This document shows positions 4,809 through 10,469 of a stretch of DNA of 35,190 nucleotides, in pieces. The DNA comes from Bacteroidales bacterium. GTDB lineage: Bacteria > Bacteroidota > Bacteroidia > Bacteroidales > UBA932. Where the stretch lies: assembly GCA_017469425.1 (NCBI GenBank), contig JAFUGJ010000005.1:1-35190 (forward strand), in the 5' to 3' direction. A program made the position numbers and the translations under genes. Below the pieces are notes generated by a model, which saw nothing but the letters and a program-made list of their open reading frames with translations, ran no database searches and was not told the origin of the DNA. Position 1 is the stretch's first letter; each line of letters starts with the position of its first letter.

Positions 4809-5993
4809 CTAAAACAGATTCACCCTGTATCCGACCGTGAAATTGAACGCAGCCGGATGCTCGGTGTAATACGATTCGAATTCCCGGTTGCCAGGCAGAT
4901 GCCAGGAGAATCCAGGCTGCACAAATAGCGAACTGCGTCCGAATATCTTCAACTGAATACCGGCTCCGGCGTTTAGCGACCATCTGGAATCCCGGTAGTC
5001 AATGGTATTTGAAGCTCTTGAGATTTCCGTCGTGCCCAAATATAATATATTCTTTTCTTCGCCCCCGGAACAGAATTCGAGCATCGGGCCTGCATTGGCA
5101 TACAGCGTAAGGCGCTTCCATTGCAAAAGATTGTACTGAATATACAGGGGGATTCCGTAATATGAGAGGCTTCTGTCAAGATGCGAACGGCTGCCTCCGG
5201 CCTGGGAGTCGAACGAAGAAGTCAGCGAGGTGAATACAAGCCCGGTTCCCACAGAGAGCCTGTCGGTAATGGAAACGCACAGGTCAAGCGAGATCCGTGC
5301 GCTTTGGCGATGGTCGGAGGTGGTAGTGCTTTCCCTGTTACGCGCAAGCATCGCAGGCGACGAAGTGCCAAAAACTGCGCCGGTGCCGACCGCTTTGGTA
5401 AGGGTGGAATTTGAAAGGCCGTAACCCGAACTGGTCTGCACTACATTCCCCGCAAACAGTCCTCCGGTGGAAATACCTCCATGCACGCGTATATGCTGCT
5501 GCTTCTTTTTGCGTTCCTGCGGCCAGGTCTGCACGGTCTGCCGTGTGCGGGGAGCCGGTTCCGTTACGGCATCGTCGGTTTCCGGTAATGCCGCCTCGGT
5601 TTCGACCGGTTCCGTTTCGGCCGGCTTTGTTATCGTTTCGACAGATTCCATTGCGGTTTCAAGCGGTTCTTCAGTTTTCCGGGTCTCCATCTCGAAAACA
5701 GGGGTTCTGCAGAACGGGGGTTCCTCCGATATATTTTCAGCCACCACTGCGTCTCCCGGGACGATGGAGACTCCTTCCTGCGGCATGGAAGGATGCAGGA
5801 TAAGAACAATTGCAAGTACGGCAGCGGCAGCAAGGGCCGCTCCGGCATACCACCATATCGGAGCCGGTTTGCGGCAGCCCCGGCCTTGAACTCCGGAACT
5901 GACTGCGTCCCACAGCCCTTCCGGTTCCGCCTCGGCAAAAGAATCCATGCGCTCAGCCAAAGACTCCGTCCAATCTTTTTTCAGTTTATCCAT
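4809..5993 (-). CDS. Dma-like dual membrane-spanning anti-sigma factor with outer-membrane beta-barrel domain
   Basis: A 394-residue protein with four visible parts. Residues 1-45 are a charged cytoplasmic segment with a GLWDAV motif, like the short sigma-binding end of Bacteroidota anti-sigma factors. Residues about 47-66 form a single hydrophobic helix. Residues about 67-165 are a linker rich in E, T and P. Residues about 168-394 show alternating hydrophobic strands, many Tyr and Gly, and end in YRVNLF, as in outer-membrane beta-barrels. Its start overlaps the end of the ECF sigma gene by 8 bases, as expected for a sigma/anti-sigma pair. Established knowledge: Dma1 of Bacteroides thetaiotaomicron spans both membranes, restrains the sigma factor Das1 and controls outer-membrane vesicle formation. 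I infer the same class here; the signal it senses is unknown. Without the sigma neighbour it would be called a PorT-like barrel protein. Confidence 0.8.
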   Translation of the reverse strand: MDKLKKDWTESLAERMDSFAEAEPEGLWDAVSSGVQGRGCRKPAPIWWYAGAALAAAAVLAIVLILHPSMPQEGVSIVPGDAVVAENISEEPPFCRTPVFEMETRKTEEPLETAMESVETITKPAETEPVETEAALPETDDAVTEPAPRTRQTVQTWPQERKKKQQHIRVHGGISTGGLFAGNVVQTSSGYGLSNSTLTKAVGTGAVFGTSSPAMLARNRESTTTSDHRQSARISLDLCVSITDRLSVGTGLVFTSLTSSFDSQAGGSRSHLDRSLSYYGIPLYIQYNLLQWKRLTLYANAGPMLEFCSGGEEKNILYLGTTEISRASNTIDYRDSRWSLNAGAGIQLKIFGRSSLFVQPGFSWHLPGNREFESYYTEHPAAFNFTVGYRVNLF

Positions 5994-6585
5994 TATCCTG
6001 TCGTTTCCAATAATCCTTTATTTTTGATGCGAGAATTCGCCGCGCACGAAGATACTGCGATGCGGAAGAATCCTCCTTGATGCCAAGCATCCCTGCTATT
6101 TCCTTATGCGATTTCTTTTCGAATACAAAGAGATTGAATACCGTCCTGTACCCATCCGGAAGAGCCTTTATCATCCGCTGCAACTCCTCGGGAGGGATTT
6201 CGGGGCGCACCGGCTCATCTTCGGCGTCGGAGGGTATCTCCGGCAACTCCGACAGGGCAAGCAGGCGTCCGGAATTGCGAAGCGACTTCAGTGAATCATT
6301 AACCACGATACGGCTCACCCAGGCGCGGATACTCCCCTCTCCCCTGTATTCGAATCTGTCCAGGCTGTTGAATATCTTGATGAAAGAGTCTTGCAGCACA
6401 TCCTTCACATCGGAAGGGTCCACGACATAGCGCGAGCATACCGCAGTAAGATACCCCACATAACGGTCGTAGAAACGACGCTTTGCCGAGGCATCTCCGC
6501 TGCGGACAAGAAGCAGCAGTTCCTTTTCAGTCGGAATCGCTACGGCTTCTGAACCGGAAAATCCGCTCGGCGTCTTTTTCTTCAC
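5986..6585 (-). CDS. ECF-type RNA polymerase sigma factor (Das-like)
   Basis: A 199-residue sigma-70 family protein of the extracytoplasmic function type. Region 2 spans about residues 35-103, including DVKDVLQDSFIKIF and the promoter-melting segment FEYRGEGSIRAWVSRIV. Region 4 spans about 134-192 with the helix-turn-helix core SHKEIAGMLGIKEDSSASQY. There is no sigma region 3, as usual for ECF factors. The frame opens with GTG at 6585, with a TGA two codons upstream, so this is the longest possible start. The start lies inside the preceding NigD-like gene (59-base overlap), and the end overlaps the anti-sigma gene by 8 bases. The three are therefore almost certainly translated from one message. 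It probably directs transcription of envelope or vesicle genes and may activate its own operon. Confidence 0.93.
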   Translation of the reverse strand: MKKKTPSGFSGSEAVAIPTEKELLLLVRSGDASAKRRFYDRYVGYLTAVCSRYVVDPSDVKDVLQDSFIKIFNSLDRFEYRGEGSIRAWVSRIVVNDSLKSLRNSGRLLALSELPEIPSDAEDEPVRPEIPPEELQRMIKALPDGYRTVFNLFVFEKKSHKEIAGMLGIKEDSSASQYLRARRILASKIKDYWKRQDNG

Positions 6586-7213
6586 CGTTCAACCATGTCA
6601 ATACCAAGTCAACATATTCTCCTCCTGTTTCAGGAAGATCTCTTAAATCAAAACATATCAGACCATCTCCCTCCACTTCGGCAGCGTCGCCATTGCGGTA
6701 GTGAACCAAGCGGAGCCTGTAAGGATTGCCGGGGTCGCCGACCCTGACGAGCGAGAAAGAATGCCCGACCGGGTCCGTTCCCCAGAAAGTGGAATAGTGC
6801 ACTGTGAGATAACCGTCCTCGACACTTGTCATCCAGTCGTCGAGCACATCAATCGTATCTCCTGAACCGGATGCCGGAAAACCAGCCTGCATTTTTCCTT
6901 CATCAATGGGTTCCGACCAGTCAACCACGGTCCGATAACCATAATCCATAAACTGCGAGCCCGAAACTCGTATCAAGCCAAACATCCTGCACACACCGGC
7001 AAATTCATCCTGCATATTCTCAGGGTAAAGCCTCGTAGAATCATTCACCTGCAGATAGACTACTCCGGAATCCGACTGGCGGGCGGTAAAAATAGCGTAT
7101 GCAGACTTGATATTCTCAAAGCCTATATCTGGAACATCATCCATTTGCATTGTGCAGGAGCCCGCCGCAAAAAGGGCGGAAACAAGTAGGAGTATGCCGA
7201 CGGACTTTCTCAT
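6527..7213 (-). CDS. NigD-like lipoprotein
   Basis: A 228-residue predicted lipoprotein. The N-terminus MRKSVGILLLVSALFAAGSC is a signal peptide with lipobox cysteine at residue 20. The rest is beta-rich and predicted to face the periplasm or outer membrane. Motifs such as DDWMTSVEDGYLTVHYSTFW and the following HSFSLV resemble the NigD-like family of Bacteroidota, where a DDW...DGYLT block precedes a C-terminal beta-sandwich. The ATG at 7213 is preferred for its signal peptide; an ATG at 7231 adds six residues. It sits directly upstream of, and overlaps, the sigma gene. NigD proteins lack a known biochemical activity. In Bacteroides a NigD protein has been tied to the Das1 sigma factor and vesiculation, which fits this context. 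The family call is by motif memory only. Confidence 0.7.
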   Translation of the reverse strand: MRKSVGILLLVSALFAAGSCTMQMDDVPDIGFENIKSAYAIFTARQSDSGVVYLQVNDSTRLYPENMQDEFAGVCRMFGLIRVSGSQFMDYGYRTVVDWSEPIDEGKMQAGFPASGSGDTIDVLDDWMTSVEDGYLTVHYSTFWGTDPVGHSFSLVRVGDPGNPYRLRLVHYRNGDAAEVEGDGLICFDLRDLPETGGEYVDLVLTWLNGEEKDAERIFRFRSRSDSD

Positions 7214-7274
7214 AAAACAGTCTGCTTTCATAAACTAAATCCGGGGAAAGGCAAAACCTTGCATCATCCGCAAA

Positions 7275-8900
7275 TCAATTGAAAAGCATTAGCTGCCGAA
7301 GGCTGACTTTTTCTTTGTCGTTGCTGAGTTGCACACGGAAACGCTGCGCTTTCACGGGAGCGAAGGGCAAGGTGATACCTGTGCCGTCGCCACTTCCGGA
7401 AGCCAGGGTTTTCCATTCTCCGTGGATATTGGCCTGTACGGTATATTGCTGATTGATGCCATCCCAATTCTGCCAAGGCTCAACGCTGGCAAGGCACTGG
7501 ACGGTCTGAGGCAAAGGCAGTTCTATTTCCACCATGGCCTCGTGCCCGTCGGAGGTCCATGTCGATTTATAATCGGCATCGCTAAGTTCTTTTATCACCT
7601 TGCCCCCGACGGTCATCGGCGCGCCTTCGGTAGGCACATCCTGAGTCGGAATCTGCTCCTTCAGTTCCACCGCAAGGACCGAAACCGCCGCATCGGGTGC
7701 GAAAGGAGGAAGGGAAAAGGAGGTGGCGCCTCCCGAATGTCCTTCTTTTATCTTTACCGAAGGGTCGGCAAGGAGCCGGGCGCTCCTGACTTTCGCACTA
7801 TAGGGAATGCTGATGTTCCGGTCCCACCGGGTGATATGAAGATACAGGATATTTCCCTTGCGGGTGGCATATCCGAAAGGGAGGAAGGGGAAGGGAGAAG
7901 CTTCAGTGCCGTAAATCGCTTCACCGTTAACCTCCATCCAGTCGCCGATTCTCTCAAGATTGTCGCGGCATATCTGCGGTATCGTGCCGTATTTGTCCGG
8001 GCCTATGTTAAGCAGAAGGTTCCCTCCCTTGCTCACGATTTCCACGAGTTTCCGAATTAGCTCGGAGGATGATTTCCAGTTGTCGTCGTAGGCACAGTAG
8101 GCCCAGTGGCGGTTCATGGTCATGCAGGTTTCCCACACGCTGCCCGGATACCCCGTGGCGGGAACGAACTGCTCGGGGGTTATCACATCGCCCACCATGC
8201 CGCCACCCATACGGTTGTTCAGGATAATGTTCGGACGGGCGCGGACGGCGTCATAGAATTTCAGGGCCTCTTCATGGGTGATGTCGCCGCCCTGGTCGAA
8301 CCAGACTATATCCGTATCCGGGAACCGCCCAAGCAGTTCCTCAACCTGTGGAAGGGCAATCTTGTTGATGTAGTCATCCCTGCTTCCCTGATGGGCCGGG
8401 TCCCATGCGCATCCGTTGGCTCCGGGATGATACCAGTCCAGCATGTGGGAATAGTAGAAGCCGAAATGCAGGCCCTGCTCTCCGCAAGCGCGGTACAGTT
8501 CCGCAATCACATCTTTGTCGTAAGGAGTGGCATCTATGATATTATAAGGTGTCACCTCCGACTTGAACATGGAAAAGCCGTCGTGGTGCTTGGCGGTTAC
8601 CACCAGGTAACGCTGCCCGGCACGCTTTGCAAGACGAATCCAGTCGTCGGCATCGAAACGGACGGGATTGAACTGCTTTGCAAGGGCGGAATACTCCGCG
8701 ATGGGAATCTGCTTGCTGTGCATCATCCACTCCCCGCCGTCGGTCTTGTCGCCATACATGCCGGCCAGTTCGGTGTATATGCCCCAATGTATGAACATCC
8801 CGAACTTCGCCTCACGGAACCATTCCAACCTGTCGGCCTGCTGTCCGTACAGGGTCAGCCCTATAAAAGCCAGGGCAAGCATTGCGCTAATCTTTTTCAT
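7275..8900 (-). CDS. GH29 alpha-L-fucosidase with C-terminal F5/8-type (CBM32-like) domain
   Basis: A secreted glycoside hydrolase predicted to remove alpha-linked L-fucose from host or plant glycans. The signal peptide is MKKISAMLALAFIGLTLYGQ. The GH29 catalytic barrel follows: KFGMFIHWG near residue 32, TAKHHDGF at 102-109, and the nucleophile motif VWFDQG with Asp202. From about residue 430 to 541 a beta-sandwich like F5/8 type C carbohydrate-binding domains ends the protein. I start at the ATG at 8900 because it gives the signal peptide; an in-frame ATG at 8948 adds an unlikely 16 residues and lies within the promoter. Only 61 bases separate its stop from the NigD-like start, so read-through into the sigma operon is possible. 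Exact linkage specificity is not readable. Confidence 0.92.
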   Translation of the reverse strand: MKKISAMLALAFIGLTLYGQQADRLEWFREAKFGMFIHWGIYTELAGMYGDKTDGGEWMMHSKQIPIAEYSALAKQFNPVRFDADDWIRLAKRAGQRYLVVTAKHHDGFSMFKSEVTPYNIIDATPYDKDVIAELYRACGEQGLHFGFYYSHMLDWYHPGANGCAWDPAHQGSRDDYINKIALPQVEELLGRFPDTDIVWFDQGGDITHEEALKFYDAVRARPNIILNNRMGGGMVGDVITPEQFVPATGYPGSVWETCMTMNRHWAYCAYDDNWKSSSELIRKLVEIVSKGGNLLLNIGPDKYGTIPQICRDNLERIGDWMEVNGEAIYGTEASPFPFLPFGYATRKGNILYLHITRWDRNISIPYSAKVRSARLLADPSVKIKEGHSGGATSFSLPPFAPDAAVSVLAVELKEQIPTQDVPTEGAPMTVGGKVIKELSDADYKSTWTSDGHEAMVEIELPLPQTVQCLASVEPWQNWDGINQQYTVQANIHGEWKTLASGSGDGTGITLPFAPVKAQRFRVQLSNDKEKVSLRQLMLFN

Positions 8901-8920: not shown

Positions 8921-8948
8921 CAAAGATAATAAAAAGAGATTGATGCAA
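8921..8948 (-). promoter_or_regulatory. Predicted promoter of the GH29 fucosidase gene
   Basis: On the minus strand TATCTTTG (8928-8921) matches the Bacteroidota -7 consensus TAnnTTTG exactly. TTGC at 8948-8945 could serve as the -33 element with a 16-base spacer, a little short of the usual 19-21. The -7 lies about 20 bases before the chosen ATG, which supports the shorter start. Confidence 0.55.
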
Positions 8949-8993
8949 GATTTTGCACAGCGCGAGTTTAAATAGTAGAAAGACAAAAGAATT

Positions 8994-10469
8994 ATGAAAA
9001 CAAAGCTCCTATTTTTCGTTTTGACAGTTGCAGGTTTTGCTTTTGCATCATGCAGCATGAATGACTATTATGACGGTTTCAGCGGTTATCCGGAATACAG
9101 CTACGATGAACAAACAAGTCCGGAATCCGGAGACAATTTCGATGTGATAAAGGAAAACCCGTTTGTCAGCACAAGCGAGCAGCCTGTATCGACCTTCTCC
9201 GTCGATGCGGACGGCGCCGCCTATGCATATATGAGAAGATGCATCAATTCCGGCTTCCTCCCTGATGCGAATTCCGTCAGGATAGAAGAATTCCTCAATT
9301 ATTTCACATTCAACTATGCTGACCCCGAAGGGAATGAGACCCTTGCAATAAATGCCGAGGTTGGCGGATGTCCATGGGCCGAAAAGCATAAACTGATACG
9401 CCTCGGGCTCAAAGGGAAAACACTCAAAAACGAAGAAATTCCCGATGCCAACTACATCCTGCTGATTGACACTTCCGGCTCAATGTCGGGCGACGACCGC
9501 ATCAACCTGCTGAAAAGCGGCCTCATCGCCATGATAGACTACATGAAACCCTCCGACCGCATCGCCATCATCACCTATTCCGGGAGCGTGAAAAAGGTTC
9601 TTGAATCAACGCTGGTGAAAGATGCGCAAACCATAAAGAACGCCATCCGGGGACTCTCGGCGAGCGGAGCCACAGCCGGAGGTGCCGCCATGAAGATGGC
9701 TTATGAAGAAGCCACGGCGCACTATATTACCGGAGGCAACAACCGCATTATCATGTGCACCGACGGGGATTTCAATGTAGGCGTTTCGAGCACGGAAGCC
9801 CTGGTGGAAATGGTCGAGAGCTACCTGGACAAGGGTATCTACCTCAGTATAATGGGCTTCGGCACGGGCAATTTTCAGGATGCCAGGATGGAAAACCTCT
9901 CCAACCACGGCAACGGCACTTACACATATATCGACTCCGAAGAAGAGATGATGAAAGTCTTTGTCAACGAACGCAGCCATTTTTATGCGGTAGCTAATGA
10001 TACCAAATGCCAGATTACATTCAATCCGCAGTATGTTGACAGTTACCGCCTGATAGGATATGAAAACAGGGTGATGAATAACGAAGACTTCGAAGATGAC
10101 AAAAAGGATGCAGGAGAGATTGGCGCAGGACAGACCGTAACCGCACTTTACGAAATTGTGCCGACAGAAGACTTCGCCACGGATGCCATTCTTGCGGATT
10201 TTGATGTCCGCTACAAGAAGGCTCTCGGAGAAGAAAGCAGGGGGCTGTCACTCAAAATTAAATCTTCATCAGCCAGGCCATCCGACGAATTCGACTTCGC
10301 CGCAGGCATAGCTGCATACGGACTGTGGCTCAGGAATTCGGAATACAAGGGCACAGCCAGCGCCAGCCTTGCAGAAGAACTCGTCGGGCCCTCACTTGAT
10401 TACGACCACCTCGGACTCCGGGCCCAGCTTGCAGAATTGATTCACAAGGCCGCAAGCCTTAAAAAATAA
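8994..10469 (+). CDS. YfbK-type von Willebrand factor A lipoprotein
   Basis: A 491-residue lipoprotein: signal peptide with lipobox cysteine at residue 20 (GFAFASC). The N-terminal vWF_A-associated domain contains the family signature STFSVDADGAAYAYMRR and the RIEEFLNYF block, about residues 60-125. A vWA domain spans about 150-325 with the metal-site (MIDAS) motif DTSGS at 159-163, a threonine in SASGATAGG and an aspartate in CTDGDFN. A C-terminal DUF3520-like domain follows (about 340-490). vWA domains bind protein partners through a divalent cation; the partner here is unknown. It stands alone, divergent from the fucosidase, with its own terminator downstream. I found no clear TAnnTTTG in front of it. 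Confidence 0.9.
   Translation: MKTKLLFFVLTVAGFAFASCSMNDYYDGFSGYPEYSYDEQTSPESGDNFDVIKENPFVSTSEQPVSTFSVDADGAAYAYMRRCINSGFLPDANSVRIEEFLNYFTFNYADPEGNETLAINAEVGGCPWAEKHKLIRLGLKGKTLKNEEIPDANYILLIDTSGSMSGDDRINLLKSGLIAMIDYMKPSDRIAIITYSGSVKKVLESTLVKDAQTIKNAIRGLSASGATAGGAAMKMAYEEATAHYITGGNNRIIMCTDGDFNVGVSSTEALVEMVESYLDKGIYLSIMGFGTGNFQDARMENLSNHGNGTYTYIDSEEEMMKVFVNERSHFYAVANDTKCQITFNPQYVDSYRLIGYENRVMNNEDFEDDKKDAGEIGAGQTVTALYEIVPTEDFATDAILADFDVRYKKALGEESRGLSLKIKSSSARPSDEFDFAAGIAAYGLWLRNSEYKGTASASLAEELVGPSLDYDHLGLRAQLAELIHKAASLKK

Follow-up and report, generated by a model that had tools for sequence, protein, structure and literature searches.

The DNA analyzed here, referred to as the window, is a 35,190-nt stretch (positions 1 to 35,190, forward strand) of contig JAFUGJ010000005.1 from the Bacteroidales bacterium assembly GCA_017469425.1, a genome of 2.53 Mb in 103 contigs that is 94% complete with 6.3% contamination and in which the window is contig C92. 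The minus strand of the window carries an operon encoding a NigD-family lipoprotein, an extracytoplasmic function (ECF) sigma factor and an anti-sigma factor of the Dma type. The operon adds a new example to a type of stress-sensing system previously described from Bacteroides; what is new here is a conserved element, TGCAAG-N14/15-GGATTTA, that precedes it. The features of the operon are as follows.

7236..7263, minus strand: promoter-like element TGCAAG-N15-GGATTTA ahead of nigD, found by motif discovery; 29.1 bits by position weight matrix (PWM), the top match in the window
6527..7213, minus strand: NigD-family lipoprotein, with signal peptide and lipobox ...SALFAAGSC read by eye
5986..6585, minus strand: ECF sigma factor, GTG start, 59-nt overlap with nigD; Sigma70_r2 and r4_2 above cut-off
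4809..5993, minus strand: Dma-type anti-sigma factor of 394 amino acids, ATG start, 8-nt overlap with the sigma gene; OMP_b-brl_2
5859..5993, minus strand: Dma residues 1-45, predicted cytoplasmic sigma-binding domain, pattern W..L...M..Y.E..PEGLW
5796..5852, minus strand: Dma residues 48-66, single predicted inner-membrane helix, from hydropathy
5499..5795, minus strand: Dma residues 67-165, E/P/T-rich tether, predicted periplasmic, from composition over 98-99 residues
4812..5498, minus strand: Dma residues 166-394, predicted outer-membrane barrel domain with Phe as last residue, from OMP_b-brl_2 and profile homology

Architecture of the operon and its proteins

The three genes all lie on the minus strand and the adjoining pairs overlap by 59 nt and 8 nt; the three overlapping minus-strand genes described in an earlier note on this DNA are thus confirmed by the open reading frame (ORF) coordinates together with the Pfam and NCBIfam families. 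At its full extent the nigD-like ORF spans 6527-7231 with an ATG at 7231, and a further in-frame ATG lies at 7213. Judged by eye, the start at 7213 is the more likely one, since the lipoprotein signal peptide is then N-terminal. The protein scores above the cut-offs of NigD_C (PF17415, E 5.3e-16) and of the NCBIfam NigD1/NigD2 family NF051862 (E 6.7e-26), and the Pfam scan of the window protein did not detect NigD_N. Both features of family membership, the NigD_C domain and the lipoprotein signal (the latter by eye), are present, and the lipobox cysteine is invariant across 42 aligned rows. Among solved structures, five sequences match the NigD family, the best being 3k0y.

The anti-sigma factor had been described as an N-terminal domain, a single membrane helix, a linker of about 100 E/T/P-rich residues and a barrel ending in Phe, an anatomy that the sequence supports. 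Four loci from a plasmid collection (L155, L156, L157 and L158) served as references. A comparison of the window protein with their Dma-type proteins, of the kind suggested in the earlier note, gives a match over the barrel half (probability 100%, 225 columns) and over the N-terminus (98.2%, E 3.2e-14, 31 columns; reversed control 0.7%), and residues 1-45 are predicted to bind the sigma factor. OMP_b-brl_2 matches residues 209-362 above its curated cut-off (E 1.5e-7), and by eye the barrel domain may have eight strands. In 49 aligned relatives there is one strongly hydrophobic stretch per row, which begins at residue 48 in the window and between 41 and 75 overall (median 47), and none of the 49 rows has a second hydrophobic window over threshold. 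The linker that follows is 97-148 residues long in these rows (median 126); in the window it contains 18 E, 13 P and 13 T within 98-99 residues.

Relationship to Das/Dma and EcfO-Reo systems

The reference loci differ in gene content. L155, from B. finegoldii, contains DUF4943, DUF4858 and nitronate monooxygenase genes in an operon without nigD. In L158, also from B. finegoldii, and L156, from P. massiliensis, nigD is divergent from the sigma-Dma pair, and the two are labelled EcfO/Das1-type from this gene order. No nigD was found with the NigD profile in L157, from Parabacteroides distasonis. L155 is treated as Das2-type because its gene content equals that of the dma2 region in PMC13088901. 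The window sigma factor is 44% identical over 178 residues to the nigD-linked sigma factor of L158 and 43% identical to that of L155, and by similarity search and tree its closest named relatives come from Bacteroidales bins.

A larger comparison used 80 named loci, the best 80 of 577 confirmed candidates by sigma similarity and thus not an even sample. The sigma factor tree, of 91 rows, comprises the window, 56 of these 80 loci, the four plasmid-collection loci and 30 loci of relatives; it was built by a quick method with support from the Shimodaira-Hasegawa-like approximate likelihood ratio test (SH-aLRT) only. The window falls inside a 21-row group made up wholly of nigD-operon rows (support 91). 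Over the whole tree, nigD-operon rows require 8 changes, versus 29.4 for shuffled labels (none of 500 shuffles went down to 8), and a 67-row group with an SH-aLRT value of 85 unites them with L155, L156 and L158. The exact branching is not claimed, since 30 of the 88 inner branches are open and 27 starred. The earlier note had named Das1-Dma1 as the precedent, and the tree and profile comparison bear this out: judged by sequence, the sigma-Dma pair groups with the published Das/Dma and EcfO-Reo systems.

EcfO was reportedly first described in Bacteroides fragilis. The present comparison draws on parts of three papers (PMC13088901, PMC9308784 and PMC13114119). Dma proteins are described with a four-part anatomy that spans both membranes (PMC13088901), and the Reo kind of anti-sigma factor is likewise described as crossing both (PMC9308784). 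In P. vulgatus, BcpT induces the protective sigma/anti-sigma pair M0N98_03761/03760, induction is also seen for three nigD genes, and the system confers protection from antibacterial toxins and a longer O-antigen (PMC9308784). This pair was named EcfO-Reo, with a regulon that includes the nigD genes M0N98_03762, 02415 and 03293; protein-level evidence is given for NigD3293, and NigDs are described as surface lipoproteins (PMC13114119). In a B. thetaiotaomicron dma1 mutant, nigD1 is induced and is required for hypervesiculation, and loss of Dma2 increases vesiculation with nigD1 uninduced (PMC13088901). The connection of NigD to the Dma pathway, which the earlier note had also mentioned, therefore holds for both nigD1 and the three EcfO-regulated genes of P. 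vulgatus.

The P. vulgatus locus tags M0N98_03762, _03761 and _03760 are consecutive, so a nigD gene adjoins ecfO-reo there as nigD adjoins the sigma-Dma pair in the window. The window differs from the EcfO-type P. massiliensis relative in that its nigD is co-operonic rather than divergent. In B. thetaiotaomicron, das1-dma1 presumably lie away from nigD1 in the genome. Das1-Dma1 shares with the window the four-part Dma anatomy and an effector of the NigD1/NigD2 family, whereas nigD1 there is bt_4005 (PMC13088901) and the window nigD is joined to the sigma-Dma pair. Das2-Dma2 (BT_1559-BT_1558) is similar in its Dma anatomy and, through L155, in sigma identity, and differs in the nigD-less reference operon and in leaving nigD1 uninduced when Dma2 is lost (PMC13088901).

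The joining of nigD to the pair is present, as the earlier note had said, and is not special to the window. A Dma-like ORF lies downstream of the sigma gene in all 80 named loci, and nigD is codirectional ahead of sigma in 58, with an ORF overlap in 31 of these 58 when the longest ORFs are taken. A second survey covered 61 genomes (the genome of the window, 36 of the same genus and 24 from other families of the order). NigD_C is present in 35 of them, and in 22 of these a Dma-like match lies no more than 4 kb away; in one further genome, G031, the link is interrupted by a contig end. In 20 of the 22 linked genomes nigD is first, on one strand with the Dma match and 546-1359 bp from it, and in G012 and G038 it is downstream. 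Twenty of the 22 linked loci were fetched together (the window's own was excluded and that of G038 came in a later batch); all 20 have a sigma ORF, which follows nigD in 19, and in L067 sigma precedes the Dma gene with nigD last. One locus at a contig end, L071, yielded no Dma ORF. The frequencies of 58 of 80 loci and 22 of 35 NigD-bearing genomes indicate that the arrangement is not due to chance. A linkage peculiar to the window was rejected, as this is the commonest arrangement among the sampled loci and is visible in the P. vulgatus locus tags.

Exceptions to the arrangement were also observed. In L067 and L083, nigD lies 3' of the Dma gene rather than ahead of sigma. In 22 of the 80 named loci no nigD was found by profile, and 13 of these are from Chryseobacterium. 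All three Chryseobacterium loci scanned have DUF4840 above cut-off in their upstream proteins; in L207, L219 and L230 a DUF4840 lipoprotein occupies the first operon position behind an element that is exact (L207) or has one mismatch (L219 and L230). Five other proteins in this slot, from nigD-less loci, include two that are unmatched; the others match DUF4840 below cut-off, Big_2 and NIPSNAP. A phylum-wide sample of 118 genomes, of which 117 are from other orders, contains NigD_C in four and the Dma profile at E 1e-8 in 15. A nigD-sigma-Dma operon resembling the Bacteroidota ones is also present on a contig labelled Paenibacillus (L217), which is probably a mislabelled or contaminated bin.

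The promoter-like element and its predicted regulon

Expectation-maximization (EM) motif discovery in 20 upstream regions, including that of the window, returned TGCAAG followed by a G-rich TTT block, mostly GGATTT. In the window operon, nigD is the first gene behind the element. Locus L215, from the cultured species Proteiniphilum acetatigenes, likewise has nigD in the operon, behind an exact copy of the element. A PWM was trained on 49 element sites from loci other than the window. Its third separate place in the 35-kb window scores 11.9 bits, and shuffled window sequence gives a mean of 0.15 matches of at least 15 bits. In the genus set, 16 of the 19 nigD-first loci carry the element with at most one mismatch, as does the window; shuffling of the fetched loci gives 6.6 such matches per 262 kb. 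The named loci were searched from 400 nt upstream to 120 nt downstream of the first gene, whose start is rough because the longest plausible upstream ORF was taken, with the following counts.

58 nigD-first loci (from the best 80 of 577): exact 33, one mismatch 8, two 9, three or more 8
18 loci with another first gene: exact 5, one mismatch 8, two 3, three or more 2
13 Chryseobacterium loci: exact 4, one mismatch 8, two 1, three or more 0
4 sigma-first loci: exact 0, one mismatch 0, two 1, three or more 3
600 random windows of the same size from the same loci: exact 10, one mismatch 8, two 41, three or more 541; some hold true element sites because of this origin, which makes the control less clean

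Seventeen of the 27 unlinked NigD places were fetched (L084-L100), and a nigD ORF was found by profile in 14; L097, L098 and L099 have none by profile and were left out of the PWM scoring. All 13 unlinked nigD genes scored reach 3.1 bits or less, and L085, which is linked at a contig end, carries the element at 24.4 bits; the 99th percentile for 300 random 350-nt stretches is 9.5. An element common to all nigD genes of the group was rejected on these scores. Among 21 sigma-Dma pairs of other clades (the C13 pair of this genome and 20 unlinked Dma-like places), none has the element within one mismatch, two have it with two mismatches and 19 with three or more. In L103, L104, L109 and L115, of a clade lacking nigD, the sigma genes share by eye an upstream pattern resembling GACGTATT then TGTNTATA, which is perhaps the promoter of these genes.

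In the 37 same-genus genomes the strict pattern TGCAAG-N14/15-GGATTTA occurs 27 times, versus 0 for a backward-read control. As read, 10 of these sites lie before nigD, 10 others before a gene with an apparent export signal (at most 200 nt away) and 7 before neither, one of these 7 being a contig end whose sequence repeats that of a site already counted. In the B. finegoldii and P. massiliensis references, the gap between the divergent nigD and sigma genes holds a related element on each strand; the Bacteroides-type pattern was written after inspection of those two gaps. The -10-like half reads CATTT in the P. massiliensis relative and GGATTT in the window type. We infer that the element at 7236..7263 is the site used by the operon's own sigma factor. 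A TGCAAG-type element is not mentioned in the consulted parts of PMC13088901, PMC9308784 and PMC13114119, supplements excluded, and it may be in print in the 2013 EcfO or 2024 Dma1 papers.

A second copy of the element faces a gene on the other strand.

8944..8970, plus strand: second element copy, TGCAAG-N14-GAGTTTA, before the VWA lipoprotein gene; PWM 22.9 bits, second in the window
8994..10469, plus strand: VWA/YfbK-type lipoprotein, predicted regulon member; PF12034, PF12450 and VWA families above cut-off, element upstream

Neither the element nor this apparent second target figures in the earlier note. Relatives of the VWA gene gave 22 tblastn rows at 17 distinct loci, all with an upstream PWM match of at least 12.8 bits, and several relative loci have VWA and nigD adjacent. 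A literature search for NigD with von Willebrand returned unrelated papers only. A broader pattern, designed with the nigD and VWA sites already in view and containing both by construction, has four sites in the 2.53-Mb genome and none in the control. The two additional sites lie 94 nt ahead of a 201-residue lipoprotein without a Pfam match, beside a serpin gene (C62:28658), and 7 nt ahead of a 214-residue protein that likewise has no Pfam match and bears an apparent signal peptide (C98:53038). The plain core TGCAAG-N14/15-GGATTT also matches C39:4501, inside an ORF, and C78:2931; both were taken as chance matches. Given the contamination of 6.3%, contigs other than the window may not all belong to the genome. 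In L244, L245 and L246, serpin lipoprotein genes adjoin element copies, directly downstream in two of the three; the L244 and L245 proteins were named serpin by eye. In the genome of the window, the Dma profile aligns along most of its length with C92, C13 and C95 and only in its barrel part with C51; the C13 pair (L081) has its own sigma factor without the element, and the further Dma-like proteins are on C95 and C51 (L082).

A probable autoregulated outer-membrane stress switch and its alternatives

We consider the operon to encode an autoregulated outer-membrane stress switch of the EcfO-Reo/Das1-Dma1 type, with a probability of roughly 0.8. At rest, the sigma factor would be held at the inner membrane by the first 45 residues of the Dma protein; the disordered linker would span the periplasm, and the C-terminal barrel would lie in the outer membrane. 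Disturbance of the outer membrane would alter the barrel or the tether and free the sigma factor, which would then transcribe from TGCAAG-N14/15-GGATTTA sites at its own operon, the VWA lipoprotein gene and genes for a few further exported proteins. With the order nigD, sigma, anti-sigma, the response would be boosted and then reset. NigD would reach the cell surface, and the vesicles released from it, and act as the effector, a role proposed by analogy with the P. vulgatus and B. thetaiotaomicron work. The reading draws on the gene content and overlaps, the anatomy, the homology of the N-terminus, barrel and sigma factor, and the conservation and placement of the element; sigma binding, outer-membrane insertion, use of the element as the sigma factor's promoter and the signal are the steps that we infer from these.

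Several observations weigh against this reading. Identity to the B. finegoldii reference is only 26% for the Dma protein (185 residues) and 23% for the NigD protein (166 residues, E 6e-5). A close element match is lacking in 8 of the 58 nigD-first operons and in 3 of the 19 nigD-first loci of the genus set (L061, L064 and L077), and outside the genus the strict pattern is weakly enriched, with 11 sites versus 3 in the control (24 genomes). The terms 'von Willebrand' and 'VWA' are absent from the main texts of PMC9308784 and PMC13114119, so the VWA target draws no support from the P. vulgatus papers. The last residue of the Dma protein is aromatic in only 15 of 49 rows, with an aromatic residue within the last three positions in 21 more and none there in 13. 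Among solved structures the Dma family has no sequence match, and the barrel and tether assignments are predictions from sequence, as are, for this organism, the sigma-Dma interaction and transcription from the element.

The alternative that survives best, though still doubtful, is a dedicated vesicle-release switch in which release of the sigma factor by a change in the outer membrane leads to more NigD and to increased vesiculation. It would suit a window NigD above the cut-off of the NigD1/NigD2 family, but the predicted targets include the VWA lipoprotein and others, and we know of no vesicle role for these. The requirement for nigD1 in dma1-mutant hypervesiculation favors such a switch; vesiculation without nigD1 induction upon Dma2 loss (PMC13088901) and the toxin protection and longer O-antigen of P. 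vulgatus EcfO-Reo (PMC9308784) do not. Because of these last two cases the phenotype is not readable from the genes, and vesiculation may be one output among several.

A more speculative reading, which we regard as improbable, makes the first gene a conserved lipoprotein slot within the sensor. NigD in Bacteroidales or DUF4840 in Chryseobacterium would be made together with the sigma and anti-sigma factors and would reset the Dma barrel or set its threshold. Were this true, the element would be the signature of a single ancient envelope-stress regulon of the Bacteroidota, with change confined to the slot lipoprotein and the peripheral targets.

Less probable again is a switch that senses glycans and adjusts polysaccharide use, a role proposed for Dma2; the neighboring alpha-L-fucosidase would be its target. 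The fucosidase gene (7275-8900, minus strand) does lie between nigD and the VWA gene, and deletion of dma2 changes the expression of host-glycan polysaccharide utilization loci (PMC13088901). However, no PWM match of at least 9 bits in the window points at the fucosidase, the site in front of it faces the opposite way, to the VWA gene, and tblastn at E 1e-15 found no homologue of it in 112 relative loci; membership of the fucosidase in the regulon was therefore rejected. The Dma2-type reference operon, with its DUF4943, DUF4858 and nitronate monooxygenase genes and no nigD, also differs from that of the window. Least probable of all is a soluble periplasmic beta domain at the Dma C terminus, which would make the protein an ordinary single-membrane anti-sigma factor: the unmatched structures, the 13 rows lacking a terminal aromatic residue and the 16 peaks of an alternating-hydrophobicity scan of residues 160-394 (a crude scan with no control, giving no clean strand count) would permit it, but the OMP_b-brl_2 match above its curated cut-off, the long tether in all 49 rows and the profile homology to proteins published as spanning both membranes (PMC9308784, PMC13088901) argue against it.

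The papers cited here leave unsettled how Bacteroidales detect problems at the outer membrane and what function NigD proteins have. The promoter-like element marks the operon across families and leaves few candidate targets per genome, so that the regulon can be tested directly. The element also predicts which nigD genes would join the response: those linked to the operon would, and those that are unlinked would not.

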